Part shown: positions 1 through 26,110 of the stretch, one piece after another | How the letters are laid out: each line of letters begins with the position of its first letter | Numbering within the stretch: position 1 is the stretch's first letter | From: Rhytidiadelphus loreus | Taxonomy: Eukaryota > Streptophyta > Bryopsida > Hypnales > Hylocomiaceae | Assembly (NCBI GenBank): GCA_947034895.1 | Contig: OX344761.1 | Location: 66,773,839-66,837,838, forward strand | Length of the DNA stretch: 64,000 bases | Reading direction: 5' to 3' | Translations under genes and position numbers: made by a program | Notes under the pieces: model-generated | What the model was told of the DNA's origin: nothing | What the model saw: only the letters and a program-made list of their open reading frames with translations | The model's database searches: none

Positions 1-231
1 CTTTTTGTAATGCTTCCTTTAATATCCGGGCATGGGTAGGTCCAAACATTTAAAGATGCCATAGATAAGAGATTTCAACAAAAATCTCATTGCACACTGG
101 GTACCTCTTATCTCGAGCTATCTCAGACTCGGGGTAGTAGGTTCCCAATGCTCAGTGAGATGTCTGTTCCGTCTGCATATGGACTCATATTGCAGTCGTT
201 TTTCCTAAAGACATTCGTTATGGGATTATGT

Positions 232-750
232 TCACAGTCGAACATAATCGAAAGTAGTTGGACAAATTAGACTAAAGGATGGACTCAATGGATGTGCTTT
301 TTCTCTACAAATAAAATCTAGTATAAGTGGTGTTATTCTCGGGTTCATAGGACCATAAGTAAATATGTAAATTCTTTCTAAAATTTTCTTTCCAGTCCAA
401 GCAGCATAGGCTTGGGGTATTTCACTATCTGTAATTTGTTTTAATTTCCCGTATTGAATAAATAAATAAAGAAGAGCAAAATCAAGGAGTAATTCCCCGG
501 ATTTTACTACGAATTCTTTCTTTGGTTCAAATTTATTCCAGAGTTTAGTAAATATAATTCTTTTAACATCTAAAGGCAATTTTTCTATTCTTTGTTTTAA
601 TTCTTTATCTTGGATATATTTTCCACTTAATTGAAAACTTTGTCCAAAATATGCGTTCCTATATAAACGATAAAGTGCCATAAAAAGGCATGGTCCTGAA
701 AAATAATCCTTCATTATTTTTGATACTTCCCAAGGAAACAAATAACCCAT
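232..750 (-). CDS. Unrecognised 172-residue protein inside the retrotransposon
   Basis: A minus-strand ORF begins with ATG 58 bases after the zinc-knuckle ORF ends, so both probably belong to the same element. The protein is rich in aromatic and basic residues (MGYLFPWEVSKIMKDYF at the start). It has no zinc knuckle, no aspartic-protease DTG/DSG motif and no reverse-transcriptase YxDD motif. I do not recognise the family. It could be a capsid-type segment or an accessory ORF of the element; the usual gag order would put capsid before the zinc knuckle, so the position is odd. The frame is intact from start to stop. Confidence 0.4.
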   Translation of the reverse strand: MGYLFPWEVSKIMKDYFSGPCLFMALYRLYRNAYFGQSFQLSGKYIQDKELKQRIEKLPLDVKRIIFTKLWNKFEPKKEFVVKSGELLLDFALLYLFIQYGKLKQITDSEIPQAYAAWTGKKILERIYIFTYGPMNPRITPLILDFICREKAHPLSPSFSLICPTTFDYVRL

Positions 751-807
751 TTTGAATCATCTGTACTAAACTTTTATTTTATTTTTATTTATTTATTTGT
801 TAAGTTG

Positions 808-1344
808 TCAATATAATTTTAGGTTATCCATTTGTTGGGAAGAATGAAAATAAATTAGAGTATTAATTATGGTTCTTATACTAACTAATTCTTCTATAGA
901 TAGCCTTTTAAAACTTAATCGATTTAGTTGGCTAACCGAATTTAAAAATTCTGGGTCAAAGGTAGGGAGTAAATTGGTGGTATGTGGATTACCAAAATGA
1001 TTTATTGGTTGAGGAGGTATTTTATTGGTATTATCGTAAGCTTGTTTCTTGAAACAAGTTCGTTTAATATGTCCTGTCTCCCCACAAAAATGGCAATTAT
1101 TTCCCTCTCTAAGACCCTTAATTTTCCCTCTAGTATAAGCGCGCGAATTTCTAAGATTTAAACTGTTAAAGTGTGTATTAGGACAAGGATTTGGTATAGT
1201 TCTACAAAATGGTCTAGGGTTTTGAGAAAATGGGTGTCTCGGAATAACTTTAGGATTAATTGTGTCAGTATTTTCAAATTTCGGAAATATTTCTTTTCAA
1301 ATTTCCTCTATGAATTCTTCACCTATTTTCTCAGTTAACCCCAT
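808..1344 (-). pseudogene. Retroelement zinc-knuckle (nucleocapsid-like) ORF with an early stop
   Basis: The minus-strand reading frame contains CHFCGETGHIKRTC (around 1050-1095), a CX2CX4HX4C zinc knuckle of the gag/nucleocapsid type that binds element RNA. Upstream of the knuckle the protein is basic and rich in Asn, Pro and Arg. The frame opens with ATG at 1344 but meets TGA at codon 16 (1297-1299). It is then open for 162 codons to a stop at 808-810. The early stop suggests a decayed copy, unless translation starts later. The classification as a retroelement protein is firm; whether it is still expressed is not known. Confidence 0.65.
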
Positions 1345-1605
1345 TTTCTGTCTACCCACATATTATTTTTATTTTTCTATGATTTCCACTTTACTAGGTT
1401 AAAAATAAATTTTAAAAATTTAGATACTCTTTATAAGGATTCTACAAGAAGAAATACATGTCATTCTTTAGAGAGTTCTTCTCCAAAGAAGTTACATATT
1501 CTATTTCTTCTATATGAATTCTTAATTTTGGAATTTATCTATTTTGAAAAATTCATTATTCTGTAATTTCTAGTTTACATTTCAGCCACCATTAGCCAGG
1601 ATCAT

Positions 1606-1623
1606 TCCCCGGCAGCGGCGCCA
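1606..1623 (-). other. Retrotransposon primer binding site, tRNA-Asp type
   Basis: On the minus strand the 18 bases are TGGCGCCGCTGCCGGGGA. This is the complement of the 3' end of plant tRNA-Asp with one mismatch (C where T is usual). It lies two bases after an LTR edge ending in ACA, as expected of a minus-strand primer site. Confidence 0.8.
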
Positions 1624-1913
1624 AATGTAATCTAGGTTTTGGCTTAAACCCAAAAACCCAGGAACATAGTATAGGGGTTCTATTTCTAGGGAATGATCAA
1701 ATAGTCTAATGTATTGTGGCTGAGGTCACTTGTTTTCTAGAATGTTGTGGGATTTACAAACAAATACTACGCAATTACACAAACAACAAGCAGATATATA
1801 GATTTCACTCTTATTCCCATAATTTGGTTGACAGTCCGTTAATAATGCTATTGGACGCATGATTGCAGTCCCGGTCCTGCCTAGTATTCTAGGGGCATAT
1901 TCCGGCAATTTGT

Positions 1914-3900
1914 CAGGATTTTGAGCAATTTGGCATGCATGATCTAGACTTTTAAATGCAACATTCACATTTATAATAATAATAATATAGATTCATTAAT
2001 TACCATGATTTTGATTACACGGGCAATTTGTCCAGTCACTATTTAAATAGCCTAATGACTAAATTATCATGAGTATCAAATCGGTCCCAGTCCTAGGGCA
2101 ATTTTTCTCTATCTAATGCAATGGGAATGAGTGTGTTATGCAATTTGAGATCTCCAAACTTCACTGCACATTATCAACAATATGTCAAAAACCCAAGGAC
2201 AAGAATCCAATTAATTCACAAACATATTTAGATCCCATTTATATATTTTCATAATTAAAGTCAAATTGACCATGCCAATAGAATTGTAGACATACTGTCT
2301 ATCACTTCTAATTTATTATCTAATCATAAGACAATTTGTTCATCACATCATTACTAAATCCTTACTTCATCAATACAGATATAAAGGAATAAATAAAGTT
2401 TTTATTTAATTAATATTTTTAATTAAATTCAGAATTAGGCAAATTGTCCAGTTTCCATACTTCTATCATCTCTCGAGATAATGCACACAGAACTCAGGAT
2501 GACCTAAGGTCTGTATGTAGCAACTATTGCTAAATCTATTTCAGGGCAATTTGTCTATAAGTGTAAATGAAGAGAATCGAGACTATAGTCAATTAGCCTA
2601 AACTACATATTTCTATAATTTCCATCAATCCTTTCCTACCATTCAAGAATTTATTCCCGATAATTTGCCCTATCCTTTTACAACTTCTACCCAGTATAGA
2701 AATATATAATTAATAAACTATTCATACTTTGGCAAACCGTCAATTTGCCCTTTCAAGAATTAATTAATATTTGATTGAAAAATAACTCTTGCATTGTAGA
2801 GACTTCCTAATTCTATGAAATATATTTATCACGGCAATTTGTCTATGTATGATACACAATTGCAATTTTCTGATTATTACTAAAGCTTAGAATTTCAAAT
2901 AAATTTATTCACAGCAATGCACACAAAGATAATAAATGGCAATTGATACTACACCGATTTTTAAACAGGTAAGGCAAATTGTCCGGCAGCTTTCACTTGA
3001 TCGTCCAGTTGTCTCTCAACCAGCACAGCTCCTCAGCAATTTGCCTTGTTGATTCCGTCAATGGCCGATGTGTTTTGATGTCCCTTCCTCGGTATATGTT
3101 CCTCGAATCACTTAGACAATTTGCTTTACAAACAGACTCTAAAACATGGAATTTATACCCAAATCCAATCACTGGATAATTCAAAGTCAACTTGCTTAAT
3201 CTCACTTATCAAACTACACACCAAAGATCCACTCACTGGATTAAGAAAATAATACACAATCACACAACAACACAAAGGCAATTTGACTTCAACAATAATT
3301 TTCCAATCACTGGAATACAATTAATTTAGCAAATTGACAATGTCTGAATTAGCAATCCAATCACTGGATATGCTTAAGACAATTTGCCTTTATCAATTCG
3401 GTCAAGCTCCCACTAAAAATCCAATCACTGGATTGATGAAATAATTTACGATTACACAATGCAAACATACAAATTGCTCACAAGATAAAAATCCAATCAC
3501 TGGATTTACAAACAAACAACAATTTGCCCAAACTCAAATTCACAACAACAACAGTACTCCAATCACTAGCAGTACAAAAATATACAAGTAATTAATATGC
3601 TTCAAGACAAATTGTATTAAAAGAAAAATGCACTGTGCATACAGACAATTTGACAAAAACAAGGTGCTTCTAAAAACCGAGAGAGTGGGGGGAAGGAAAG
3701 TCAAATTGTCCGATACTATACTGCCACGAACAAGTGACAGACTACTTCCGAATCTCAACTGGTCAATTTGCCTCACTTCGTATCCTGCCTATTAAAACCT
3801 TCAAAATCTCTTTATAATGTCAACTTGCTTGTCTTCTTTGTTCAATGTGAAACTAACCTCACAATTCATCTCCTTTTACACTATACAAGGCAAATTGATT
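1914..3900. repeat. Dispersed array of CAATTTG / CAAATTG words (about 27 copies)
   Basis: The 7-base word CAATTTG or its complement recurs about every 75 bases, usually as GGCAATTTGTC, GACAATTTGCC, GGCAAATTGTCC or close variants. Examples start at 1914, 2021, 2330, 2439, 2544, 2739, 2833, 2973, 3035, 3115, 3277, 3378, 3643, 3700 and 3762. Both orientations occur. The sequence between copies is not itself repeated. In AT-rich DNA fewer than one copy would be expected in 2 kb. Confidence 0.8.
3162..3573. repeat. Seven copies of ATCCAATCACTGGAT at about 65-base spacing
   Basis: Copies lie near 3162, 3226, 3301, 3354, 3419, 3490 and 3557. The word has short inverted arms (ATCCA/TGGAT) around a fixed ATCAC-like centre. 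Five copies are nearly identical; 3226 has ACTCACTGG and 3557 loses the right arm. Between almost every two copies sits one CAATTTG-type word, so the two motifs alternate. Confidence 0.85.
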
Positions 3901-5425
3901 GAAAAACAAAAATTGAGTTGGTCTACAAGAATCTTCAAAAGATTCTCTAAAAGATTATGGTTTCAAAAGATTCCCTAGTCGTGCCTTGAAAATATTCCTA
4001 ATTGTTCTTTAATTAATCGTAATTCTACGTTATTATTCTAAATTTAGTGATTTTTAGGGTTTTATGGTTTTTATGAGTAAAGTGATTAATTAACTTCTTG
4101 TTAAGATAAAGAGTAAGAATTTAGAACTTTTAGGTGAAAACTTTTAAATGGATTAAAATTCCCCTTGGTTGGATGGAATTCCTTCCTTTAATAATTTTCA
4201 AGAGAATAAGTAGATAAATTAGGTTTTGACTTTCCCTAATTATTCTAATATTCCCTAAGTTCATAAATTAAATTAGATTCCTTTTGAGATTCTTTTGGAT
4301 GAGATTACTATTTCATTTTCCAAATTAATTCAAAGTTAATCTAATTATTACTTTTTACGATTTTAGATAAATTTTCAAAGGTTTTCTAACAATTTAAATT
4401 CTACTAGCTATTGGATTTTCAATGGTTAATTTTGTTAGTTTTAATTTTCTAATCTAAATTTTAAAAGAATGAAAGCAAAAGAAAAGACAAAAGATAAAAT
4501 TTGAAATCATACCTTGGTGTCGAGAATGTCGATCGTCCCATCATCGCAAAACACCATCATAATCGTCTCCTCGAAATTCTCCATTGTCTTTCATGAATTT
4601 GGAAGAAATCTTAGTATTCTTGTTTTTAAAACCTATCTAAAAAGTCCAAATTTTTTAGTTTTGGCAATTTAAAACTAATCCTTTGATTTTAGGAATTTAA
4701 ATTAAATGATAAATTTAATTCATATTTCCTAAGTTTTCAATGAATAGTAGTTTTATTCGATTGCCAATTTTTTAATAGTTATTTTATTAAATATTCCAAG
4801 ATATTAGTTGTTGTTTGTTTTTATTGTTTTGGCTTATTAGGCCTAATAAAACAAATCCCCCAAACTACAAACAAACAACTAATTTGGATTTGGAATCCTA
4901 ATTAATAACTAAAACCAACCGAATGAATAGTATTCTAATAAAATAATCTTAAATAATCTAAAATAAATCTATCAATGAATAGGAAAAGGAATAAAAGGAT
5001 GAACGACAATCCAAATGAATAGTAAAAAGAATAAAACAATCCAAACAATTCCAACTTCAATAGTAAGATGCCAATCAAAACAATAAAATAATCAATCAAT
5101 TTAATTAGGAAGATTCTCACCTTGATCCTTCGTTCTCCTTGGCTAACTTCTTATAATCCTTCTCCTTCCTTCACTTGTTGTTTTTGTTGTATTGTTGTTG
5201 ATGTCTTGGCTATGGGTTTTTGTTGACAATGGTTTCGTAAAGAGAAATGAGAGAATTAGTTCGTAGAAATTCTCAAAATCTATCCATGGCTCCAACTACT
5301 GGCATAAGATGTTGTTTTCATGAATGAGTGTTACCTTTAAAGTTTGATTTTCAAGCTGTGATTTCAAGTTGGGAAGGCCTGGTTACGCATTCAGTTCAGT
5401 TAGAGGCATGCTCAGTTAGCAGGAG
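3901..5425. other. AT-rich DNA without a recognisable gene
   Basis: The stretch is strongly AT-rich. The only ORF of note (4935-5120, minus) is a low-complexity string of Leu, Ile, Phe and Tyr produced by the base composition. It may still be LTR or element sequence. Confidence 0.6.
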
Positions 5426-5559
5426 TTGGGCGTAAGCTGTCCTCTCAGCAGTCGAGCCTGCAACCGCCGCCACGTGTCGGTACGGGAGTGGCCGACTGCC
5501 TCGGCCGTTCCCCTTCGTTCCCGTTCGCTCCCTCTCGTTCCCGTTCGCTCCCGTTGGTT

Positions 5560-5770
5560 CCCCGCCTTGAGTTGTTCCGACCTTGGGCTGTTCCGCCTTG
5601 CTGTCCCGACCTTGGGCTGTTCCGACCCTGGCTGTCCCGCCTTGTGCTGTCCCGACCTTGGCTGTTCCGCCTTGTTGTCCCGACCTTGGGCTGCTCCGAC
5701 CTTGGGCTGTTCCGCCTTGGCTGTCCCGACCTTGGACTGTTCCGCCTTGGCTGTCCCGACCTTGTACTCT
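5560..5770. repeat. GC-rich minisatellite of CCGACCTTGG-type units
   Basis: Short units alternating GCTGTTCCGCCTTGG and GCTGTCCCGACCTTGG follow each other with small variations. In all frames they give repetitive peptides, so the ORFs here are by-products of the repeat. The array is a sharp GC island in AT-rich surroundings and is preceded by CGTTCCCGTTCGCTCC-like repeats at about 5500-5560. Confidence 0.8.
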
Positions 5771-6127
5771 GATTTTTGGTTATAAAAAGTCACACCCACC
5801 TTTTCTTTAGAAATAAGAACCAGCCAAAAAAATGAAAGCAATGATAAAAAAAACAATTCTTTTAGATGAGAATTATGTTAACTAAATTTTAAAACAAACA
5901 AACAAACAAACACAAAGTAAAACAACTAACAACAAAACCCCACTAGTTTGGAAGGTCCAATACCTTCACACTTACACAAGCAAAAGAGAAATAATTCAAA
6001 GGCTTTTAGACCTTAAATAAGTTTCAAAAGAATCTTATTCTGTTGATTCCTTTGGTTCAAAGCTTCGTCATGTGGTTTAAATTCACAATTAGATGGTCAA
6101 TTTAAAAGTAAATTTTAACCTTTTAAA

Positions 6128-6570
6128 GTCAAAGCTCCGCCGTGTGGGAGCAACCCCAGGAATTAACAGTCAAATTAAAGTTTCAAGTACCCGTTTCCAG
6201 GTTTCCAAGTCAAAGCTCCGCCGTGTGGGAGCAACCCCAGGAAATAACTTGACAACTTAAATTTTAAGTACCCGTTTCCAGGTTTCAAAGTCAAAGCTCC
6301 ACCGTGTAGGAGCAATCCCAGGAATTAACAGTCAAATCAAAGTTTCAAGTACCCATTTCCAGGTTTCAAAGTCAAAGCTCCGCCGTGTGGGAGCAACCCC
6401 AAGAATAACCAGTATCCAAGGATCCAAGCTAGTATTTTGAAACTTAATTCTTAAAGGAGGTACACATGACAGTGTTTAACCGAACATTAAAAACTAATTT
6501 CCAAAATTCAAGGCAAAGTTCTAGTTTAATCACTAAAGGAGGTACACATGACAGTGTTTAACCGAACATT
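6128..6570. repeat. 81-82-bp tandem repeats (four copies plus a shorter pair)
   Basis: The word GTCAAAGCTCCGCCGTGTGG starts at 6128, 6209, 6290 (one change) and 6371, an exact period of 81. Immediately after, TAAAGGAGGTACACATGACA occurs at 6452 and 6534, a period of 82. The two words differ, but the shared period suggests one array with a diverged end. Confidence 0.85.
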
Positions 6571-7782
6571 AACAACTATTCAAACCAAACACCCGTTATA
6601 CAACGAGTTTTGGCACGGGGTGATGCTCAAAACCTTTTGGCAAAGTCTAGCTTCGCCGCTTTAAAGTTTTAAGTTCACAGACTATTCTCAATTCACACAA
6701 ATGGTTGGTTAGTATCAAAAGAACAACAATATCAAAGTAGAGTTTGGGAAATACTCCCACAACTCCCAAAATGTCAAAGTTTTGGGGCTTGAAGCCTCCA
6801 AATTCAAGAAATACGTTAGTTAACACAAACAATACTAGAGTTAGGGGATTTCCTCCACCTAAACTCTTTGACAAGCAAAGTTTTGGGGCTTGAAGCCTCC
6901 AAATTCAACAAGAAAAGAAAACAAAGCTTTGAAGGGGCCCTCCGGACCTTCAAAGTACAAGAGAATAGAAGAAAATAGAAGAAAATAGCCAAAACTTGGC
7001 TTAAAAGTGCTCCGACAAGTGTCGGTAGCACGACAAGAGCAACAACAAGAATGAAACAAAGAATGAGGGCCACGAACAACCTCGAGGAAGGGCCTTATAT
7101 ACTCGCTCCAGGCCCCCCCCCGGTAAGTTGTTCGTAAATTATCTTTTACTTTCAATCTAGATATTTTGCTAAACTACCTAAACGTATTTTCAAAATAATC
7201 TTTGTTTAATGGGAAGGAAGGTTCTCAAGCGAGTTCCTTCTAGGCCCTAAATGGCCTTAGAATCTTTTCCCAAATCAAATATTTGATTTTCCCAAAGATA
7301 TTTTGAAAACCTACCTAATTAACCAAGATATTTTGTGTTTTAATCTAGGGTTAGTTCTAAATTGTCTTTCTTTAGTCCAAAAGATGGCTTCTTACGCAAG
7401 ACAAGTATCTTGGGCAAATCCAATCTTCGATTTTACAAGAGATATTTGCAAAATCAACCCAGATTAATCAAAAATTACCTTTTAAAAGTCAAACTAAGGG
7501 CTGACCCTCTCTATCTTTTGAGGGACAACTCGAAACTGAAAACAAACTGCGCCATCGTGTTCAGAAGACCCCAATTAGCCTAAAGGACCCCTTACCCCTA
7601 CCTCTCTAGCCGTTTTAAAGCGCAAATTTGAGTCACGGTAACTCAGAACAAAAGTTAAAAAGCTATCTTTTGGAGTTTGCGTCTTTTGATGAAACTGTCG
7701 GTCCTGGGTGGTTTAGAATATTCGTGGGAGTAAGAATTGACCCTTGAAATGCTCCATTTGGACACCGCTAGCTCCTGGTTAG
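6571..7782. other. Repeat-flanked sequence without a recognisable gene
   Basis: A segment containing TTTTGGGGCTTGAAGCCTCC is present twice, about 101 bases apart (near 6775 and 6876), and accounts for overlapping minus-strand ORFs. A run of C is present near 7114. No conserved protein domain is visible. Confidence 0.5.
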
Positions 7783-7800
7783 CCGGTCAACCCGCCGCCA
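7783..7800 (-). other. Possible second retrotransposon primer site next to an LTR-like edge
   Basis: The plus strand ends in CCGCCGCCA (a tRNA-3'-end-like CCA) three bases before TGTAAATTC. The arrangement copies that at 1606-1626 (CCA, short spacer, TGTAA). I cannot match it to a specific tRNA, and no gag-like ORF follows on the minus strand, so it may be a remnant or coincidence. Confidence 0.25.
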
Positions 7801-8663
7801 AATTGTAAATTCTTGTAAAATTCGCTGTCGGTTCTAATTCTGGTAGTTGGGAATGTCGGAATGTCTTCAAACTTGACAGGGCTCTTTATTGGCACACAAA
7901 ACACTATTCTAATTTTTAGTGAGATTTTACCGCAACATTGGTAATTTCTAGGAATTTACAAATGCAATTTTAAGCGGTTGACTTCCCATGGAGTCATCGT
8001 GGAGTTTTGTAAAATCCCGAAACTTTTGGGCAATCTTCTAGAAGATGTCCATCAACTAAGGGCAAAACCAAATCTCCAATAAGAATGCTATTTTTAGCAA
8101 TTCTTTAATAATTTCCACCCGGGGGGGAAATTATTCTTGATACTGAGGGAATCTTGGATGATTGGGCTTCTATTTGACCTCCTAGCATGCTTTGACCTAG
8201 AAAAGCACCTTTCTGTATGTTCCAATCATCATTTCCTCCATCTTGGTCTATGAATGAATGTATTTCTCAAAATTACCTGCAAACAATAAATCTAACTCTT
8301 TCGAGTTGGATTTGGACTGACTCGGACTAGACTCTAAATTTTAACCAGTTTGTTACATGTATACTTATAGCTGTTGTATTACATGAACAAGACACTAGGA
8401 CTGGTTAACTCTCAAATTCTCACATCGCTCGGAATTACTGACTTAACTACTTATTTATACTAATAAGACCTAAAATTAGTGAAAATGTAACGTCTTACGT
8501 GTTTCACGCATTTAAGGCCATTACACACCTCTTTGGTAGGGACTTCTACCAAAACCCACAATAATTGTATTTTTATATGTTTTTTCTTATTTTTCACTCA
8601 AAAATTAACTAAAAATCGCGAAAAATAAGTTCAGAGTTCCAAGTGCCAACTTGAGGGCTCACA
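7801..8663. other. No gene seen
   Basis: AT-rich sequence with no conserved ORF. It may be LTR sequence if the primer-like site at 7783-7800 is real. Confidence 0.4.
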
Positions 8664-9041
8664 GTGGTCAACCCCCCTCCAGTCCCGACTGTCGCAACCC
8701 GCGAGTGGCCGAGGACTCCCCTTCGGTGGCGAGGCCCTCACTGCCCAGACCTTGTACTTGCATTTTTTTTTCGTTGTATGATTGAATCTTGATTCGGGAG
8801 GGGTGATCAACCCCGCTCCCATCCCAACTGTCGCAACCCGCGAGTGGCCGAGGACCCCCCTTCGGTGGCGAGGCCCTCACTGCCCAGACCTTGTGCTTGC
8901 ATTTTTTTTTCGTTGTATGATTGAATCTTGATTCGGGAGGGGTGGTCAACCCCCCTCCAGTCCCGACTGTCGCAACCCGCGAGTGGCCGAGGACCCCCCT
9001 TCGGTGGCGAGGCCCTCACTGCCCAGACCCTGCGCTTGCGA
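8664..9041. repeat. 139-bp GC-rich tandem repeat, about 2.7 copies
   Basis: GTCGCAACCC starts at 8691, 8830 and 8969, an exact 139-bp period. Each unit contains CGAGTGGCCGAGGAC, CCTTCGGTGGCGAGGCCCTC and a T-run followed by CGTTGTATGATTG. Copies differ at only a few positions, so the array is young. Overlapping ORFs on both strands are repeat artefacts. The array ends about 75 bases before the first visible exon of the ParB/methyltransferase-like gene. Confidence 0.9.
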
Positions 9042-9115
9042 TTTATTATTTTTCCCTCGCCCATAGATTGAATTTTGTGAACTCATACATTGATTTTTTG
9101 GCTATCAGAATACAG

Positions 9116-12100
9116 GTAGCGATACACTAACAGTCCGGACACCTGGGACCTCGGTGCCTAATTTGGCTGTTGATGCCCTTGAGACCCCAGTTCTTTTGGA
9201 CGAGGTTGGGGATGAGCCTATGCATGATATCTTGGATTCTACTGAAGGTTCTGGGTTTCTCGGAGAGGACGATATATAGAGGACACAAAAGCTTGATTAT
9301 GTTTCAACTATTTCCAGTATGCGCTTTGAACCGCATCATCTATCCAGGATGGATATTCCTCTTTGTCGTTTGGTTCCCATGCCCATGGTGAGACCTACTT
9401 TGGAGTGTGATTTGGTGCAACTTGAGACGGACTATATCCACGGTTATGAGAATGGAGCTCGTGTTTTTTATGTCTCTATTTCGAACGAGGAAGGCCAAAC
9501 TAGTGTGTTTTCAGACTCAGATAAGGGGGAGTGGGGACCTCTCTGGAATTCTGTCAACGACCAATTTAATTCATATTTGAGGAGTCATCCTGAGCTCGTG
9601 CACTTGGTGGACGCTAAGTTCTTTATCTGCGATGGAAACCACCGTCGTATCGCATGGATGAGACATATAAGGCGACTTCACAGCGCTCACCCAAAGTGGC
9701 ATGTCCGTGTTGATTCTATTCTATTGGATACCAAAGGAAGACTTGGTGCGGCCATGCAAGTGATGCATGATATTAATCAGTGAGTTCTGGTCTATCATTT
9801 TGAAATTCTAGTATTTGCTCAATCTTGTATCAATTGATGCTAACTTCGTTACCTTGTCCTGGTCATTAGGCACACCGAGAATTCTCATGTCAAAACGAAT
9901 CTTGTTCACACATTGTACCGTGTTCACAAGTATGGCACGATGCCTCTACAGAAGTTCACTGAGCTATTGAGCGCCGAGGATGCCAAGGCATGTACTCAAA
10001 ACAACAGGAAAACGTGGTACAGCATGCCCATGGAGGTGTTTACATCATTTATTTTCCAAGTAAGATTTTCATTGATTCATTTTGCTTCTTGTCGTATTCC
10101 CCTCTACTTCATTAGAGTAGGTATCTGTGGAATTTTGCATCCAACATACTCCTTGACATTTTACCTTCTAATTTTTTTCCCAGTAAGAGATTTCGGCTGC
10201 AGCAGATGCTTCGATCCGCAAATTCCACGAGGATACTCCAGTGGAAGATGTCACTCCAGATGGTGTTGCAATGGCGATGCAACATGCAACTAAGGAAGCA
10301 ACCAGATTGCTTTGCCAGAAACTTTACAAAATTCAAGCCGTGGCCAATCCGATTTTAGGTGATGAGTGGCTTCAAGAGGTAATTGGATTAGCAACTTCAT
10401 ATTTCTCTGATTTCCTCTTGTCACTTTCTTGTTCATGATACTGAATTACCTATGTCTTATCTCAGATTGAACGGCATTGGAGCTTATACGCTGTCCAAGA
10501 ATTGACCTTGGACAAGCTGCAACTCATTGCAACTGCAAATGCGGAATCAAGACACAAAGTCAAGTGGCTCAAGTGGATTAACTCTTCCGCACCTACTCGT
10601 GAGGCACGTCGTGTTCCTCCAAGACCAGCAAACGATGACAAAATCATGAGCTTTCTCTCTAAGGCTTGTTGGTATGCTGCGGTAAGTCTCTTTGAAATAT
10701 CATTTTTTACAAATTCTTTAAATTCGATATTTTTTTAAGCTTCTAATTTCATTCTTCTACACCTCATTTGACAGATTGAGGACTCTGCTCTTGAGTTATA
10801 TGAGAGCATTATCAAGGCCGACAAGATTCCAGTGAATATGGAGGTGCCTGCAAAGCCGGCGACACTTCCTGACTACATTGAGGGATGGATGAAATTGTGG
10901 ACTACGCGTATGCAGGAGCATTCAAGGGTGCTGAGTCTTTTAAGAAGTCAGACTCCTTCAAGGACTTCAAGAATTCTGCCCTTGTTGTGAAGAGGACCAT
11001 TTATAGGTTTGAAATTGAACTCAGAGCATTGAGATTCATAGGTGCACGATTCTTTTGCGTGTCAATGAGTCCATGTTCTTGCTATGCAAATTGTGAATTA
11101 TGAGTTTAATGTACACAAATCGATTCCTGATTAGGTATTTCAAATTCGAGTTGTACATGAAGAAGGCCATCTCCAAGGCCGATTTGCCGCCCTTTCTCAA
11201 CACATGGCTGGATCGATCGTCCGAGGCTTGTATGTTCTCATCTGCCCAAGACCGGAACTGGCCGAGTGTTCATCTTCAATCCGGCGCCTGGTACCTGGAA
11301 TGTAGTGGCGGTTTCACACCACCTGAGGAGGAAGCTCTCTTTATGAGCATCAAGGAGAGTCCAATTACGGAGGCGGAGTTACCTGAGTTTGCAAGGCTTG
11401 AGGCCGATGCTCGGGAGAAAGCCATGAAGCGACGGGAATTAGCAGACAAGAAAAAGGAAGAGAAGTGGGAGACCGCGAAAAAGAAGCTTGAAGAAAATGA
11501 AGTCAAAAAGAGAGATCGGAAAGCTGAGAAGGCCAAGATTGATGCCCAAGGCAAGCAGAAGGGAAAGAAGAGAAAAGTGGAGACTCCGGTGGTTGATCAA
11601 GCGACAAGTGATGGAGCCATGAAGGAATCCTCCTCAGGCTTCTCGCTCACCCAGTCACACCTCTTGCATGGCCTGCCACCTCACGTTACCGACTTGACTG
11701 CAGTGGCCGCTGTCGACCAATGCATCTTGAATGTTTCTGTCTCTAGTCTAGTGGGATCAGAGGAAGGCGCTGCAACGCAAGCATTTAAAGACGTATTCTC
11801 CCTTTTAGAGAAGGTATACCATGTACAATTCTGGTCCAATTCATTTGTCTATGCTTACCTGTTAGTAAATTCTCTGAACCTATGCAAGTGCTCACTCCAT
11901 CGCATGATGTCATATTTGAATGGTTAGTTTCTTCGAAGCATAGTTGACATTCTTACATGTCTGCAGCATGCCTCGGACAAGAAACGCTTCTTTAATGGTG
12001 TGGCAACAGGAGAAGCAGCCGTGGACCTGCTAATTGTTGATGTCCCGGAGGGTTTACCGGTCCCTACCGTTTCCATTCCACCGACATCCGTTCCAAAGTG

Positions 12101-13356
12101 GAACCAATTCTCAGAAGACGGTTTGCAAGCCGTTTTTGACTTTGCGGAGAATTATGTTCACGACGCTGGTGCTCTTCTAGTGATCTACCCTTTTAGTCGG
12201 GACATTAAATCCTACCTCTTGGGATTTTGCGAATCATTTGGATTTAAATCCGAAAGGGAGTATTGGGGCACTAACAGATTGCATTTGACCTCACCCGTGG
12301 ATCCTTCTGGAACGGTAAGACCTCCACTATGGATAGTTATCTATCTATTGAATAGACTTCATGTTCAAATAGAATTGAATATATTTTTCAATTGCATACT
12401 AATTTGAAAATTGGTGCACACAGCGCTTCAAAATTTCACTATATGTGAAGGCTAAAACTGGACCATCAAAGTCTTGATTCATTTTCCAGCATGTCCCAGC
12501 TCATGCTGCAGTAGATGTTAATGTGGGCAAAGATGACCTTCTGCAGAATTTTTGCAATAAGGAAGATCAGACCATGAATGGCAATGTCCCCTGGCGTGGG
12601 CCTCGAGAGAAGGCTCGGCCCTTCATGCAAATGCTTATTGAAGGAACTACCTTGCCTGGTGACATTGTCATGGACTGCACTGCATCTACAGGTTAATTTT
12701 TTGTTTTTAATTTAGCAATTGAATTTCTGGTTCACATTACTTTAATTCTGCGAAATTTTCCTCACTGTTGATGCGGCCTCTCTCTATCTTTGCAGGTGCC
12801 AGCATTTATGCATGTCGAGCTACTGGGCGCCATATAGTGGCTTTAGAGGACGATAAGTCTATTTTTGAGGCCCTCCTTGCTCCCTTTAACCGCTCCGTTG
12901 TGATCCCAGAGCCTACACCACAAAGCTCTAAAGCTACCCTGGTTGATTTGGAAGACGAGGTGGTGCCGGTCCAGCGTGTGCCAAAGACAACACGATTTAG
13001 TAAGTAAGTTTATCCCTATGCTTCTGAACCACAAATATAAGGATGCTTTTGGTATCTGGTTCTCATATTTATTTCTTATTTTCTGTAGGCAAGGCGCGAA
13101 AATGAAGATGTCATCAACGAAACCGTTTTTTGCAAATCCGGCCTTCTTCCGCAGTCCTCCTCAGGTTTTTCAGCTGCCAGTGTATGCTGAAGCTGCCGCA
13201 AGGCAGCTTCAAACTCATGACCGTAAAACACATTCTAGAGCTCGAACAGTAGATCCCCGTGTTCTAGTTTATGTAGATCATTCTACTAAAGATTCAGCAG
13301 ATGAGTCATCAGACACTGATGAGAGCCCTGCATCCGAATCTTCTAGCAATACCTAA
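9116..13356 (+). pseudogene. Ten-exon gene: ParB-like domain plus permuted DNA-methyltransferase-like domain, with lesions
   Basis: Exons with GT-AG borders and matching phases: about 9116-9779, 9870-10059, 10190-10378, 10466-10681, 10775-11006, 11135-11813, 11967-12314, 12490-12691, 12796-13003 and 13089-13356. Total is about 1,060 codons. Exon 1 holds FFICDGNHRRIAWMRH, similar to the DGNHR signature of ParB/Srx folds. Exon 6 has a Lys/Glu-rich helical stretch ending in KGKKRKVE, a likely nuclear signal. Exon 7 has LLIVDVPEG in the place of a methyltransferase motif IV (usually DPPY). Exons 8-9 have LPGDIVMDCTASTGAS then GRHIVALEDD, matching the GD-V-D-FxGxGT and G-E-D pattern of permuted N4/N6 methyltransferases but degenerate. 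The tail is acidic and Ser-rich. Lesions: in-frame TAG at 9277-9279; one base missing near 10880 (run of G); and a TAA straight after the best exon-3 acceptor, avoidable by using an AG six bases on. The true 5' end is not visible. Catalysis is doubtful. Confidence 0.7.
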
Positions 13357-14450
13357 TTACAAGGATACTCCTATCTATTGTATTTCCGTATACTCATCTA
13401 CATAGTTATGATGTCTTCTCTTTGCATAGTTTGTTATCTTTCTTTTCTAATCTATGGCATTTTTTATCTTACTTGGTCCCCTAAACCTCGCAGACTTTTC
13501 ATTTGCATGTTCCTAAAGTGTAAAATCACAATATTTTGTAATACACGGTCATAGGTCCCCATCTAAAAATTCCAAAGAAAGGTCACCCTAACCTAAAGGC
13601 TCACAAGCTCATAGGCTCTTGGGCTCATGCTCCAAAGCTCACAAAATAGCACCCCCGGGATCTAGAGTAGTGGAGTGGAGGGTGTTGTAGGTGGGGATGG
13701 TGCAAAGGAGGGCATTGTTGGAAGGATTGATGGGATCTGGAATAGATTTTTTGCAAGGACGTCCATTGCAAATCTTGATTTTCTAGTATTGAGGGCTTTT
13801 GAAAATTAGCCTCAAATACACTACATCTTAGAGAAAAAATCACATTAGAAATTCATTTAAAAAAAAATGTAGACTAGATTTTGAAAAGCCATAAATTGAT
13901 AGGGATTATGCATGTTATGTCTTTTAACCTCAAATTTTATTAGAAAGGAATGGAACCGTGTGCTTACAATATGTGTTACAATACCATGTGCTTGGAGTAT
14001 GTGTACCATTATAGTACCATACTGTGAGAAATCATTATATGCATATTTATTTTTTCTAGTGCAATTCCAACCTAAGCTTACTTTAACTAATTTTCTTAAA
14101 CTACAGAATTATTCTAGAGCAAAGGCAATATATACAAATGGTTGAAATGTGCAAAATGAAAATGAAATTTATAATATTCATCCCAAAGGATGCACATTCA
14201 TCCCAAAACAAGAAATATTGTCCTTTAAATATGTAGCAAACAAGCAATTTCATCCATTGAGAATGGAGGAATATATCACCTAATATTTCTTCAAAAAATT
14301 GTATCACTTATGGGAGAGATTGCTCTAAATAAAATGTTGCCAATACCTACCACATTGATCCAGTCCTTACTGCTAAAAAAAAATGCTACCAACCCCCACG
14401 TTGATCCAATCCTTAGCTCCCAACCGGATCCAAAATGCTTTCATTGGATC
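13357..14450. other. Downstream flank with fragment of a TTAA-family element
   Basis: The first 300 bases are probably 3' untranslated and flanking sequence of the preceding gene. A fragment of the TTAA element family lies at 13728-13945. At 14340-14460 a phrase containing TTGATCCA(A/G)TCCTTA occurs twice. No gene is seen. Confidence 0.5.
13728..13945 (+). mobile_element. Internal fragment of a TTAA-family element
   Basis: About 200 bases align without large gaps to 28190-28400 inside the complete element at 28028-28673. Shared words include ACTAC/AGATCTTAGAGAAAAAATC-like sequence, CACATTAGAAATTCATTTAA and GGGATTATGCATGTTA. The terminal CCCC ends and TTAA flanks are missing here. Confidence 0.7.
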
Positions 14451-15399: not shown

Positions 15400-17085
15400 C
15401 ATCTGAAAACTGTGGCCCCTTACAAAGCAGACTAGGTCTGGCGCACGAGCATTGCCATTCCTTGAATATTTCAAGAAAGGTCGGCATTGGGAAAACTCTG
15501 CCGCCTAAATGGACCAACATCACTAAAGTGTACATAGTCATAAAATTTGAGACTAAATTCACCTTTTACTCTGTAGCAATGACGAAATTTTAGGCTAATC
15601 ATATTTCTCGTCCTCTATTTTGTATGAAGAGAAGCTGAAGAGAAAACAAAACCGGAACCCTCGTTATCATCGCCAATAATCAATCATCGTCTTCAGCAAC
15701 GTCTTCGTCTTCAGGAACACCTCTCAGGTACATCACATTGTTACATCTGCAAATACAAGAGAACTGACTGTAAACGTCCAAATCTGGAAGGTCCAGAAAT
15801 ATTGACCAGAGCATCTAATTCAAAACATCCTTTCAGTAAATATAAAGACAATACCTGATAAGAACCTCTCCCAAGTTACCAGTAAATGCTCCATCCACAT
15901 ACTCCTCCGTGCTGGCTAGCTGTAAATCACGATGAAACAACCAAAAGTGAGACCTCACACACATTCATAATCAATTTCAATTTCAACTGCCAGACGAGAA
16001 GGAATTTGAATCTGAGTACTTACCTGAAGGTTCATGTACGAGTCAACCGACACCAAATAACCTGTTCCCCAAAACCCATCCAAGTATCGCGATTGGCGTC
16101 AGAAATTTAAATACAACGCAAAATCCCGGTGTCTCGAGCTTTGTGAGTATATAATTTATTTTCAAATCCAACTCACGGTTAACAAGTTAGAACCATTTTT
16201 TTGGAAAATGGGGGAGAGAGGGCTGCACAAGCAAGCTGAATTTCATAGACTTTCATGATGGCAGATTCAGTACTCACAACCAACGAAAATATTGCTTACT
16301 ATTACTTATAGCATTCTATGAGTACAGTAAACAAGTAGCGATATTGTTTACTTCTCCTGTACGACTTGGGCGGTCTAATATGCCATCGAATTTATCTGTC
16401 GATATCATTGTTATAACAGCAACAAGCGGTTTCTGAAATGAATTTCTATGCAAAAAGATATGGCATCGATTACTCCGACCTGTACCACGCTCAAACAGAA
16501 ACCCTAATGTCGGTGCGATTAGGGCTTAGCAAGGGTTTATGAGAGTCAGGAGAATAAAATATTTCATGGCATCACTAGGAACACAGGTATCTAATACACA
16601 AGGAGTCTTAAAAGTGGAATAGAAGCAACGCACCTTTGTATTCCATGCCCCACTTGAGTTTCACGATGACCGGCTTCCCTGTCAAGTCATTCAAAAATGG
16701 CTTCGGATTCACCGGTACAGTCTGCGCAAAAATTCAAAAACATACACGAGGGAAAAAATAATTCCAATCAGCTACAAAATCATACATAATCGCAAACCTC
16801 AATCCAAGTGTTGAAAGAAAGTCGACAGTAGCGCACTCAGTGTAGTCACAATGTCGGCATTTGAATTGAAGAGTGAGAAAATCAGCAAGCGAAAAAGGCT
16901 AGGTTCAAAATTTTACCGCCATCGGAAGAGGAAAGGCACGAAGCTGGCGATTAGATTAGTGACGTGAGATTTCGGAGACAACAAGTTGAGGAGAAGCCGA
17001 CGTCGGAGGAGGCCCGTCTTGAAGAGACTTGCATTTTGGACGAATTCTGTTAAGAGGGATGAGATATCGTGATCTACGGAGATGA
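15400..17085. repeat. Segmental duplication, copy 1 (Sm-F gene and flanks)
   Basis: The whole interval aligns in the same orientation with 38560-40130. Similarity covers exons, introns, about 280 bases downstream of the stop and about 160 bases upstream of the start. Introns 3 and 4 are almost identical, while intron 2 differs: copy 1 carries about 130 extra bases (16128-16262). Confidence 0.85.
15680..16922 (-). CDS. SmF: Small nuclear ribonucleoprotein Sm-F, copy 1
   Basis: Sm-F is one of seven Sm proteins that form the ring around U1, U2, U4 and U5 snRNAs in the nucleus and is needed for pre-mRNA splicing. Five coding exons on the minus strand: 16917-16922 (ATGGCG only), 16634-16721, 16024-16061, 15855-15919 and 15680-15746, all with GT-AG introns. 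The product is 87 residues. It begins [17 protein letters not shown] and contains [20 protein letters not shown] (Sm1) and [19 protein letters not shown] (Sm2, with the RNA-contacting RCNN). It ends in an acidic tail, as plant Sm-F does, and its length matches the family (about 88). Intron 2 contains AAACCCTAA telo-box sequence near 16499. The protein is identical to the second copy at 38850-39952. Confidence 0.95.
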
Positions 17086-18461
17086 GAATTTCCGTAGGCC
17101 GTGCCCATATCAATGAACGGGGAGTACCGGCATTTAGTTACGACCTAGCCGGTTGAATTTGAGAATTTCCTAATGAAATAGAGAAGTCTAGGCTAAGGTT
17201 CCGAATGAAAAAAAAATGTTTAGGAAATGGGCCGGTTCAAAAAATTATATTTAGGCATTTAGCCGTCTAGCCTCAAAGTATGTAGGAAAATTGCCTATTA
17301 AAAATATTTTTCGTAGGCGGGCAGCCGACCAATCTTATACTTTCTAGGAAATTTTTTATTACTATGCATGTAATTTTTTTTAAACTATGTGTAGACCCCT
17401 CATGGCCTCACCCCTATGGCCATGTCATCTAACATTGTAACTCATCTTGTGTAAGTGTATAACAGTATAATTGTGTAATGTGTATTACTGTATTGTGTAC
17501 CAAGATCAATAAGTCAGTAAATAATTTGCTTTTAGTGTTTTACAGTTTTACCGTTGGGATTTGGAAATTTGGCGGCCTCCGATGCAGGCAATAGCTCCAT
17601 TTCATTTTCCCGCACTCCCGCTATCCCGCCGTTCCGCCGAGGCATCGGAGCCGTTGATCGCTCCCTCAGTTGATCTGAACCGTAGGGTTTTGGACTTCGC
17701 TCACACAATCACCAATCACCACTTCGTCAGTCACACTCAACCGCGGAGCCGCCTCGCAAGCTCACATTGTCGCAACCCTCGCATCCTTCAGAAATTGTAG
17801 CCTTGCTGATTGAGAGCTTAAGTCTTCGTGTGTTACAACGATTTGCAGCGCCAAGCCACGAGTTTGTGATTTTATTTGTGATTTTGCAATGTGCATCCAC
17901 TGCACCGTCAGTTTCTATGCGATTTGTAGCACTCCAGGAGTTTGTGAATTGTGACTTCGTCTGCGGGAGTGCGGGACAGCGGGAGTGTGGGAGTACGAGC
18001 CTGCAATTTCTGGCGAGTTCGTGACTTTCAAAAGTTCTGCAAGTTCTGGCAAGTTCGTGACTTTCTGGCGAGTTCGTGACCCTGGTTCGCAACTTTGCAC
18101 CCAATTTTTTTGCGCCCTTCTTCATTTCCCATTTTTTTTTCCCTGAATGATGGTGACGAGATCAAAGTAGAATTGTAGGGTTCTAGGGTTCTGCAATTTG
18201 CATGTGCAATTTCAGATTGTAGCAACCATACTTGACTGCTGGTGAGATCGACTCTGGTGCTGGTGGTCTTTCAATTATGGCACACATTTTGAATCCAGCA
18301 CAGAATACACTCCACAGATCGATACCCACCAAGTTCCCACCGTTCATTCTACAATGTAGGGTTGCTAAAGTTGCTAGCGTTACTGAACATTTGCAATTGT
18401 TGGTTGCAAGGTTTAGGACTGTGAGCATTCTCTTGCTGTCTAGTTTCTTCTTGCTAGTTGA
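17086..18461. other. Flank and probable 5' leader of the hAT element
   Basis: No conserved ORF. Between about 18007 and 18085 the phrase GCGAGTTCGTGACTTT recurs three times with variations. Several AGGGTTT words occur near 17683 and 18180. The left end of the hAT element should lie here, but no terminal repeat or 8-bp target duplication could be fixed. Confidence 0.4.
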
Positions 18462-20726
18462 ATGGCTAAACGGCAAAGGTCCTTACGGGACCATTACTTT
18501 TCCAAATCGAGGGAACTTGATGTTTTTGAAATCTTCTCGTCAACGTCCGAGAACTCTTCTCTCGAAACAACTGATTCACAAGTCGCTCACACTCCTCCTT
18601 CAGAGGTCGAAATTGCTCAAGGGCAGTGGAAGGAGCAATGGGCCATTCAATTCGATTGGTTGCATTTTTGTCCAAATGTTGGGAGGGTTTTTTGTAAAGT
18701 CTGCAGGGATAAAGGCGGGCGATCGTCGTATGCCAAAGACGGTGCCAGGAACTTGAAGGTCAGCTCTTTCTAGGACCATGCTCGATCTGGAGAGCACAGA
18801 CGGCTAGCTTGGGCGTCGCAAAGTGGTGAGAAGGTCATAGAAAAGGCAATTTTGCAAGGGCAGAGGGCGTGCGACGAAGCTGTGGCTTTACTCTTTCGGG
18901 CTGCATATTTTCTAGGGAAGCAGTCTTTACCCTATTCGAAATTCCCTGCTTTGTGTAAACTATTGCTTACTGTGAAAGCTCCGATGACCCTATCGATGTA
19001 CCAAGATGAGAAATCTTGTGCTGACCTCATGATGTGCATTTCAGTTGTGATTCAGAAGCAGGTTATTACTCGTGTGCGGAATTCAGCATTTTTTGGTGTC
19101 ATGATTGATGAATCAACCGATGTTAGTGTTACAGGGCACCTCGTCATTTTTGCTAGCATTGTGGAGGAGGGTCTACCGGTGACTTTATTTCTTGGCTTGT
19201 TGCAGATCGATGGGGGGAAGAAGGACTCAGGTGTCGTTTATGAAACTTTAATTTCAAGCATTCGGAGATGGGGGCTTGACCTGCGGAAATTTGTCGGATT
19301 TGGGAGCAATGGTGCTAGCACCATGGTGGGCAATTTGACAGGAGTGGCTGCCCGAATCAAGTCACAGGTGAATCCTTACCTTTTATCTGTCCACTGCGTT
19401 GCTCATCGAACGAATTTGGCGGCCTTGGATGCAGCGAAGTCTCCAGATTGCAAGGTAATTTCTTCCCAAATCGACTCTCTCCTAAATTCAGTTGCTGGTT
19501 TTTTCAACAAGTCTAGCAAGCGGAAGCACACCCTTACTAAACTTCAAGAGGAATTCTTTGACGTAAAAAAAACAATGAAGCGTTACCACAAAATCCGGTG
19601 GCTAAGTCAGTGACAAGCAATTACAACCCTGTGTGAGTCTTTGGAGTCTGTCCTCGAATTCTTCCGTGGCCTGAAGGGCCAAGATGCAGGTACAGCTGCT
19701 CCCATCTTGCAGAAATTAGGGCAGTTCAAGTTCATTTATATTTTATATTTCCTTGCTGATATCTTGCATTGCTTAGCTACGTTGTCAAAGGTATTTCAGT
19801 GCAAATTTGTGGATGTGACCACTGTAGGTAGCATTGTGCGTTCCGAGATAGCCCAAATTCTTATGCTGTTCATTGTGGAAAATACTGATCTGAATGCAGA
19901 CACGTTTAACGAAGATTTAGGCTACCATGTGCTTCCGGAGTATGGCTCTTTCGGGGGTTTGCTCAGGAAGCTTCCATCTGAGATTAGGGGGGATATGTAT
20001 CACGGTTGCAAAATTCAGCGTTCTAGACTAGGAGTAGACCTCGAAGAAGCTTTGCAGTTCCAACGTTCATTTGCTGAGGCCGTTTGTGCTGGTTTGGAGG
20101 CTAGATTTCGTGACAATGATTTGATTTCTTGTTTTAAAATATTGAATCCTTTTAATATGCCGTCTAAGCAAGTTGGCCTGCAGAACTGGGGTGTCACCGA
20201 GTTGGACAAATTGCTTGAGCTCTATGGAACTGATCGATCTCATTCAGGTTTTTCCTTCCCTCCCCTTCTGGATGTGCAGGCTTGTAAGCGAGAGTTTTTG
20301 TCCTTCAAATTACAGTGTACAACTGAATGGGGGGACAAAACCTTCCGAGATTTGTGGGGTATGATTACTTGGAATCATGCCCTACAAATACGGTACCCAA
20401 ATTTGCTTATTCTTGCTGAAATTGCTAGAGTGCAGTGCTTTTCCACTGCTACTTGTGAGAGAGCTTTTAGCATTCAGAATTTGATTAAAACTCGTGTGAG
20501 GAATAGATTGGGAAGCAAAAACCTGGATGCTTTGCTTAGAGTTGCTTTAGAGGGACCAGAAGAAGAGTATGATGCTATTTTAATAGATGCCATACCCATG
20601 TGGAAGCATGAAACCAAATACAAGTTCCTCTATGCTAACCCAACTACCTATTTGTCTAATTCAGCCATAGCCACAGGTCCTACTGCTAGCACTTCAACTT
20701 CTGAATTTGGCCTTGAATTGCCTTGA
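18462..20726 (+). pseudogene. hAT-superfamily transposase, broken by two in-frame stops
   Basis: A single reading frame of 755 codons is interrupted by TAG at 18771-18773 and TGA at 19611-19613 but has no frameshift. Order: an N-terminal TTF/BED-type zinc finger (HFCPNVGRVFCKVCRDKGG, with its histidines just after the first stop); a DUF4371-like core with FFGVMIDESTDVSVTGHLVI, GFGSNGASTMVGN and LSVHCVAHRTNLA; and the hAT C-terminal dimerisation region with RYPNLLILAEIARV and STATCERAFSIQNLIKTRVR. This is the ZNF862-like branch of hAT transposases. Both stops are single-base changes away from sense codons in otherwise conserved sequence, so inactivation is recent. No intron is needed. Terminal inverted repeats were not identified. 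Confidence 0.9.
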
Positions 20727-21230: not shown

Positions 21231-23487
21231 ACACAAAAAAGTCCTTAACCGGCTACATTTACATAGTAAAGGAAATTAGCCTATTGAAATTTGAAAATGG
21301 CAGCAATGCCACCGGATGAAATTGAAGTTCTAGGAAATTGACCGGCAAGTTCTGCCACCTCACTGCAGCCTTCCGGCCAAATTTCCAAAAAACCGGGGTG
21401 GATGAAACTTTGTAGGAAATCTACCGTTTCACCCACAGAACTCCCCGGACCCTGGCCCATATCAAAGCATCTGCACCGTGGCCCGGTAAGAGGGTTGCTT
21501 GGGAAAATAAGAGCTGAGAAGGAGAACCGCCGGTTAGTTCATTGTTAGCTGGTAGAATTGGGAAAAAAATTCGTTTGCAATTTGAAAACATCAAACAAAA
21601 AATCTAGTAAAAAAATCTATAAAATTTCTATTTAGAGTTAAAAATAGGAAAAAAATTAGACTTCATATTTTTTTAAATGGTTAAATGTCGAAATTAAAGG
21701 AAAATAGTTGGTAAAACTATAAAAGAAATCCCAAATGTTGACTGAGAATTAAGTAAACTCGGTGTTGTAGTTTTGACTCAATGGTAATCCAGCAACGGTA
21801 AACGTTGCCCACATGTTGTTTGTGGTGAGGTCCTGGTATCGACAAGCTAAAAAAGAAAATCCCAAATTGACTTTGTAGCTCTCTTGGAACTCAAGTGACT
21901 GCAGTCAATAGTAAATTCTCCTCTTATCTCAATTTCAAAACTCATACTTTTTTCATACGAAACCCAATTGCATTCACTGCCACTTCCATTTGCCAACCCC
22001 ATGTAATTTTTACAATCAAAACCCAAATTGTCGCTGGATCTGAAGTGTCTCACAGGTGAGGATAGTCACACCAGTTCTTCATTCCCCACACGGTCGCTTG
22101 CTGCGACTCCCTGCCTGGACACGCTTTGCAAATCTCTCCGTTGTCAGTATTTTCACCCAACTTGCTTTCATCTTGATCAGCAAGCAGCATCTATTGCTCA
22201 TCTCCTCGCAGCTGCAGGCAAAGCATCCCTTGCATTTCGCATTTCGCATTTCAGCTCATGTATGATAACAGAAAAGACTTGTATTTCACACTTGTATCTA
22301 AAACATCTTTTCCTTCGACTTGTGACATAAAATATTTTCTATACTATCGTAGTCCTGACCGACGACTGTTCAAACATCGAAGTGGTAACACAAGCACCTT
22401 GTGAGGCGGTGCCTGACTCTGCCAAAACAGTACTCTCTCTGTCATCAATTTGTAACTTCAGTCACATGGAAGCTTGAGTCAAGATCGACTATGAAGAAGA
22501 GAACAGGGGGTGCGTCTGTTTTAACTCTGACTTCTTCCGTGGTCACTGTTGCGAGGACTTTCGGGAGCTTGGTATCTGTTGGGACCGTAGCCGATGCAGC
22601 AAGATAATAGAAACAGAGAGACGTACAAAAGTGAGTGAGAGAGTGAGATTGAAGTTGTGAAGAGCAGGAATTCGGCAAGGGAGGTGTGACTTGAGGGAGG
22701 TTAGATTTGGTGAAGGTAGGATTTTGGGTTTGATTTGACTTTTCTCTTGGAGTTTCTGCATTCGCGGAGGGAAGGTTGTGGCTGGTGCAGGCTGTGAGGA
22801 GGTACAGTCTTTGCCAGTCCTTTCTAGTTTGCACAGTGCTTTCTTTGGTCTGAGCTGAATCTAGTGTTGATTGTTGCGAGGAGTCGTGTTGAGTGGCCAA
22901 TTGCAAGGTTGGAGTATTGATCAATTGCGTTTCTGCGCTTTCTTAGTTCAGGGACTTGTGGAAAGGCTCTGTTGAAGTGTAGGGTTTTCGAGGACTGGCG
23001 AGTTGCTAGAATCTGTGATCAGCTGGAGAGGTAGCGAGCATTTGAGTAGAGGGTCTCACACATCGCTTATCAGGGTATCTGCATTGGATTTTTGAGGTTT
23101 CATTGATAATGGTGACCGATTTTCTCTTCAATCGGAATATTCACCCTGGGAAGGTAGGTTTGCCTTGAATCAGCGATTGAGTGTAGTCTTTTTTTCACTC
23201 TAAGTACTGCATCGGGGTTTCTTTGCAAGCTCTTCAACCGATTTCCCTTCATTTCGCTCTTTGAGGTTCTGCTCATCAGCACTCTTGTGAAAGGTGGGCG
23301 ATTGGTGCTTACAACTTGGACTGGACCAGACTTATGCTCGCCTGATGCATGAGGTCCATTATTTAAATTGGTTGAAGCAGATTTTTGGAATATGTGGACT
23401 AAATTTGCGTGGGGCTGATTGACAGACATCCTGCAAGTGAGCTCGAGCAGTCTCTTGGGTTTGCTCGTCGAACAGTAGTGAAGCGCA
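21231..23487. other. Intergenic DNA and presumed promoter/5' leader of the channel-like gene
   Basis: ORFs on both strands in 22028-22924 are unrelated to any family I recognise. The plus strand becomes G- and T-rich from 22600 with TAGGGTTTTC near 22980, typical of plant 5' leaders. No sequence resembling a CASTOR/POLLUX pore or membrane helix exon was found. Confidence 0.4.
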
Positions 23488-25528: not shown

Positions 25529-25599
25529 GGTTTGGCTCTCGTGTATTGTAAGTTTTTGTCGCCTTCTTCCGCTATTTTCACTGCCTGTGGGGGTCCTTC

Positions 25600-26110
25600 T
25601 TCTGGGGATCCATGTAGGATTTCTGCTTCTGTGAATTATAAGTGTTGGTCTCCTTCAGCTTTCGTCGTTTCCTCTGGGAATCCTTCTTCTGGGGATCCAT
25701 TTACGGGTTTGCTTGTGGGAATTGGAAGTGTTGGTCTCCTGCTTCAGCTGTCTTCGTTTCCTTCTGGGGATTCATTTAGGGTTTTGTTTCTGTGAGTTGT
25801 AATTACTTGTCTCCTTCTCCAGGGTTCCTTCTTCTTGGGATCCATTTTGGATTTGCCTCTGTGAATCGTAAGTATTGGTCTCCTTCAGCTTTCTTCGTTT
25901 CCTCTGGGGATCCTTCTAGGGATCCATTCAGGGTTTTGCTTGTGGGAATTGGAAGTGTTGGTCTCCTCCGTTAGCTTTCTTCATATCCTCTGGGGATCCA
26001 TTGAGGGGTTATGCTTCTGGGAATTTGAAGTGATCGTCTCCTTCTTCACCTTTCGTCATTTGAGTATTTTCTGGGGATCCGTTTTCTGGGGATGCATTTG
26101 GGTATCGAAG
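25600..26110 (+). repeat. Degenerate tandem repeat of about 70-87 bp after the channel-like gene
   Basis: TCTGGGGATCCAT-type words recur near 25611, 25688, 25763, 25831, 25903, 25990 and 26070, together with GGAAGTGTTGGTCTCCT and CTTTCTTCGTTTCCTC. Seven units are visible; spacing varies. The array starts about 70 bases after the stop codon, so it is probably in the 3' untranslated region or just beyond. Confidence 0.75.

Follow-up and report, generated by a model that had tools for sequence, protein, structure and literature searches.

The window analysed here is a stretch of 64,000 nucleotides of Rhytidiadelphus loreus DNA (contig OX344761.1, positions 66,773,839-66,837,838; coordinates prefixed C1 refer to the whole contig). 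It carries a split gene that joins a ParB/Srx-like domain to a methylase-like domain. The gene belongs, as an accessory gene on the plus strand, to a family of large DNA transposons that have terminal inverted repeats and target-site duplications (TSDs) of 9-10 bp. Four further elements of the family, E, F, G and E88, are used for comparison. The gene and the part of its element within the window are composed as follows.

1..8663, no strand: element-internal DNA without similarity to E88, probable nested insertions
8664..9044, plus strand: 139-bp tandem array, 2.7 units, with the core CTCGCCACCGA on the minus strand
9116..9779, plus strand: exon 1, ParB/Srx-like domain, with DGNHRRIAW at 9631-9657 and an in-frame TAG at 9277-9279
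9870..10059, plus strand: exon 2
10190..10378, plus strand: exon 3
10466..10681, plus strand: exon 4
10775..11006, plus strand: exon 5, frame lost through 3-base and 1-base deletions relative to 6/6 close copies
11135..11813, plus strand: exon 6, lysine-rich stretch
11967..12314, plus strand: exon 7, methylase motif IV half, DVPEG replacing DPPY/DIPY
12490..12691, plus strand: exon 8, motif X and motif I region (DCTASTG)
12796..13003, plus strand: exon 9, remainder of the motif I-II region
13089..13356, plus strand: exon 10 and the stop codon TAA
13608..13657, minus strand: 3' terminal inverted repeat, ending TAGCACCCCCG
13658..13667, no strand: 10-bp TSD GGATCTAGAG, the same bases standing directly before the 5' end at C1:66751167

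The first-pass annotation of this DNA had proposed a gene of ten exons with consistent borders and phases. The ten exons stand, with GT..AG at all nine introns as read off the sequence (at the exon 8/9 border, an end at 12691 and the next start at 12796) and with the motifs DGNHRRIAW, LLIVDVPEG and GDIVMDCTASTGAS all present, but the phases do not, as the frame is broken by an in-frame TAG and a net shift of -4. The TAG sits within a conserved part of exon 1, and in exon 5 three bases are gone after 10886 and one after 10898. Because neither the TAG nor these losses occur in any of six close copies, the window copy is damaged and unable to encode the full protein; other stops are found in exons 1-5 of four of the six. 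All four borders among exons 1-5 are kept in the window and in five of the six close copies, the exception being one acceptor that reads AA in L089. Position 9116 is an exon acceptor and has no start codon. An additional 5' exon is likely, because database relatives continue upstream of 9116 in the same frame and because three close copies (L088, L089 and L093) have a common flank with a donor-like border ahead of the array; since this flank precedes the array, the array may lie within the first intron of the gene.

The element spans C1:66751167-66787495 (36.3 kb), mostly beyond the window, and the gene lies in its 3' part. Three nearly identical copies have one sharp 3' edge, ending TAGCACCCCCG. 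The window element and six close copies finish in the same way, except for a single changed base in one copy. The TSD GGATCTAGAG is exact at both ends of the window element, its 5' end and TSD being 22.7 kb before the window start. Beyond the array, the 5' end is common to F and G, with a 44-bp inverted repeat at 84 % in F. The TSDs of the other elements are CTCTGTAAT (E), AAACTAAAA (F), TCTTTTGCTC (G) and ATTGCATTAG/ATTGCATTGG (E88), that is 9-10 bp in 5/5 elements, one pair having one mismatch. The spans are 34,955 bp for E, 18,537 for F, 19,018 for G, 11,824 for E88 and 36,329 for the window element, and the layout across related elements is an inverted repeat, a minus-strand gene, often a tandem array, the plus-strand ParB-methylase gene and an inverted repeat. 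The first 2.6 kb of the window element are 97 % identical to E88. With blastn, window positions 1-8663 had no hit at E <= 1e-10 to U88, a 12-kb stretch of E88, and because of this lack of similarity they are probably nested insertions within the element.

Upstream of the window, at a distance of 20 kb, there is a transposase match on the opposite strand, and the 5' end of the window element stands just beyond it. The minus strand of F holds two reading frames, 785 and 457 codons from stop to stop, which are open in F and G. A CxC..CxH finger is found near the C end of the minus-strand gene (SWIM E 0.076, below cut-off), a D..D..C..H layout can be made out by eye, and a search for a MULE domain found none. 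The minus-strand gene at the other end probably encodes a SWIM-type (Mutator-like) transposase. Mutator-like elements have TSDs of 8-11 bp (PMC6446971); TSD length, inverted repeats and an antisense second gene in our family fit this description, the class itself being unproven. The transposase query gave 1,479 candidates in the genome, 104 of which were scored, and the 45 best were compared with 111 ParB-methylase places. A ParB-methylase match was present at <=60 kb from 42 of the 45, in divergent orientation in all 42 cases, against a mean of 0.95 and a maximum of 5 under random placement; the other three (C4:62083767, C2:19391206 and C2:42807219) had no partner among the 111 places compared.

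The gene is abundant in the genome that the window comes from, an assembly of 407 Mb in 489 contigs, five of which (C1-C5) are large. The exon 1 query gave 1,367 first-look places and the exon 7 query 1,101, which are candidates and not confirmed copies; 150 were scored for each, all at E <= 5.3e-70 for exon 1 and all significant for exon 7. Database relatives of exon 1 number 229 at E <= 10, and the best 120 of the 229 all have E <= 1.2e-56; these matches and the scored places go beyond chance. The window gene is real, but it is multi-copy and no single-copy gene of the host. The copies in E, F and G are open across 1,060 codons and 4-7 substitutions apart, too few to give their ratios of nonsynonymous (dN) to synonymous (dS) substitution, 0.39-0.88, much meaning. 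The comparison of E88 with F gives a dN of 0.28 and a dS of 2.8 (saturated), a ratio of ~0.10, which argues that the protein has been kept; its sequence is conserved between two subfamilies. Introns and a conserved coding sequence might equally be expected of an ordinary host gene family, or of a captured gene merely near transposons, but such a reading is contradicted by the element boundaries and is extremely improbable: the exact common ends, the TSDs, the near-identical gene copies on different chromosomes and the pairing with a transposase strongly support the earlier suggestion that the gene is cargo of a eukaryotic mobile element.

Tandem arrays are frequent upstream of the gene. Close copies of the window array have 3.2 to 9.1 units within the stretch seen; the units of another subfamily are 96 bp long. 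In E, two probes of 600 bases, taken 15.7 and 20.7 kb upstream of exon 1, still match the 96-bp array. When the first 1,600 bases of 22 of the 29 other copies were surveyed, arrays were found in 16, their units measuring 96-97, 137-139 or 149-150 bp; in six, these bases held no array. The 11-base core CTCGCCACCGA was chosen by eye from the same units, so its tests are post hoc. It occurs without mismatch in 13 of 17 units including the window's (all those of 96/97 and 137-139 bp) and with 1-2 mismatches in the four of 149/150 bp; dinucleotide shuffles equalled the observed core match in 0/1000 cases when two units of 96 bp and two of 139 bp were tested, and in 3/1000 and 53/1000 for two 149/150-bp units. 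It is also the longest word common to a 96- and a 139-bp unit, a length of 11 being reached in 1/500 shuffles. The 150-bp unit shares nothing above chance with the 96- or 139-bp units (419/500 and 80/500 shuffles), and hairpin arms within the array units were not above chance.

Support for the ParB/Srx domain proposed for the gene comes from an AlphaFold model whose comparison with known folds gives this fold, and the family has a G-x-H-R type signature, D-G-N-H-R being conserved at 99/99/100/100/96 % across 121 sequences. PF02195 gave no match for the window piece, nor was it among the matches of 63 family members. Signature and fold are common to the DndB/DUF1015/ParB/sulfiredoxin superfamily, whereas similarity in sequence is marginal (E 0.008 for DndB). 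For a captured phage or bacterial gene, the other suggestion of the first-pass annotation, pattern-limited scans gave no lead, as they turned up no direct relative of the ParB part among prokaryotes or viruses. A PF02195 search of the whole genome gave five places on small contigs, none of them a copy of the ParB-methylase gene; the ParB matches on contigs C199, C234, C293 and C308 perhaps reflect bacterial contamination of the assembly. In Escherichia phage C1 (L003 270-1959), ParB-like, hypothetical and methyltransferase genes adjoin, which is the prokaryotic pairing that the first-pass annotation had named.

A permuted N4/N6-methylase, as claimed, has sequence support in motifs X-I and weaker support in exon 7, where it comes from profile comparison. 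The motif order is IV..X..I, as in beta-class N4/N6 DNA methylases. Motifs X-I match PHROG (3e-6), PADLOC (1.6e-6) and 5hek (8e-4), while the PF01555 match (3e-4) is below the family's cut-off; for exon 7, 0/200 column shuffles reach the score of the profile comparison, and the hhalign probability is 14 %. The methylase of Streptococcus phage 7201 type has the same motif order as the window gene, with D-I-P-Y-N-L and S-D-P-R-W where the window family has D-V-P-E-G-L and S-V-P-K-W; motif IV in the Streptococcus phage relatives is D-I-P-Y. Unlike the phage type, the window family has Glu or Lys for the catalytic Tyr, a changed glycine loop, a ParB-like fusion and introns. P0002, a database reading frame, runs from exon 7 into exon 8 with a scrambled stretch between them and is possibly a processed copy.

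The same two domains are described together in algal transposons. Sola1-1_Ec32 of Ectocarpus encodes a 1,104-aa ParB-methylase protein opposite its transposase, and the same source cites similar proteins from transposons of green and red algae (PMC12477816). ParB-methylase accessory genes of transposons are therefore already known as a kind, and the gene described here belongs with them, as both domains are in one protein encoded divergently from the transposase. As in Sola1-1_Ec32, a ParB-like and an N4C/N6A-type methylase domain are united in one protein of ~1,100 aa, and the carrier is a giant DNA transposon with its transposase gene on the other strand. The family here differs in its 9-10 bp TSDs together with a probable SWIM-type transposase, its degenerate motif IV, its internal tandem arrays and its more than 1,000 candidate places in one genome, and these features are new as far as we searched. 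The first-pass annotation knew of no named plant family of this composition; none appeared in the literature searched, but the algal proteins are published.

Motif IV was compared in 32 sequences (the window, 20 sampled of the 150 scored copies, P0001-P0007, E, F, G and E88; P0008 was left out as it does not cover the motif). It reads D-x-x-E/K in 32/32, the fourth residue being E or K, and the catalytic D/S/N-P-P-aromatic form was found in none of them; in the window, as in E, F, G and E88, DxTAST takes the place of the glycine loop of motif I. These changes suggest that the methylase-derived domain is probably a pseudo-enzyme. METTL14-type pseudo-methylases likewise retain the methylase fold with an altered catalytic motif, although class and substrate differ and the comparison is an analogy only. 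Active self-methylation, in which the protein would still add N4-methylcytosine (4mC) or N6-methyladenine to the element's DNA, would agree with the detectable motifs X-I and has been proposed for the ParB-methylase proteins of algal transposons (PMC12477816), but it is made quite improbable by the missing aromatic residue and by the altered glycine loop. Replacing Ser and Tyr of the SPPY motif abolished 4mC addition by a bdelloid N4CMT (PMC8885841), and because the motif IV change resembles this mutant, methylase activity of the domain is unlikely.

Altogether, the observations hint that the element uses a ParB-methylase-like protein as a tool on its own DNA. Fold, linkage, conservation, motif change and arrays are the established steps, from which we infer binding, clamp loading and anti-silencing. 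The ParB-like domain would bind a site in the element's tandem array, for which CTCGCCACCGA is the candidate, and would load as a clamp, and the methylase-derived domain would grip DNA or a partner but add no methyl groups, the altered motif IV in 32/32 sequences pointing to binding rather than methylation. The element would then be shielded from host silencing, or the ends of a very long element would be brought together, and the transposase would be enabled to act. An accessory protein acting on the element's own array, to protect the element or join its ends, is the best explanation, which we find about as easy to believe as to doubt. Its more specific form, a partition-like system of plant transposons in which a ParB-type clamp fused to a dead methylase loads on parS-like sites, amplified into long internal arrays with subfamily-specific units, and keeps the element open and mobile, is put forward tentatively and is rather doubtful. 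A helper of the transposase, building a synaptic complex on array and ends of a long element and having no silencing role, would fit the proximity of the gene to the transposase (42/45) and the 11.8 to 36.3 kb spanned by the five measured elements; it is nevertheless unlikely, as the array units are internal and not at the element ends.

An accessory protein with an anti-silencing role has a parallel in Arabidopsis, where VANC proteins are the anti-silencing proteins of VANDAL (Mutator-like) transposons, whose own-element motifs have multiplied into tandem repeats both within introns and upstream (PMC5735166). Both cases involve an accessory gene of a DNA transposon and tandem motifs of the element itself, but the likeness is an analogy with no homology claimed, and binding and anti-silencing are presumed functions of the protein here. 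If it did act in this way, transposons would have arrived twice at a similar trick, once through VANC in Arabidopsis and once, in the present family, through a ParB-like clamp, and a bacterial-type DNA clamp would operate in a nucleus. For the ParB-methylase accessory proteins of algal transposons, binding and modification of the element's own DNA have been suggested; the more than 1,000 candidate places, near-identical open copies, subfamily-specific arrays and motif change make this suggestion testable.

Elsewhere in the window, the plus strand carries a hAT-type transposase remnant at 18223-20726 (DUF4371 8e-8, Dimer_Tnp_hAT 7e-8) and a CASTOR/POLLUX-type ion channel gene at 23482-25528 (Castor_Poll_mid 7e-44), a kind of gene that points to a plant genome; a degenerate tandem array comes after it, at 25590-26048. 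Two reading frames on the minus strand, 49565-49984 and 53695-54105, form a similar pair (VLPSGEWPE(N/S)FSMLNYEDLSK) and overlap tandem repeats of 161 and 155 bp; the former had no Pfam match at E <= 0.01. A dispersed repeat pair is located at 15407-17088 and 38565-40130, with two parts 91 and 77 % identical.
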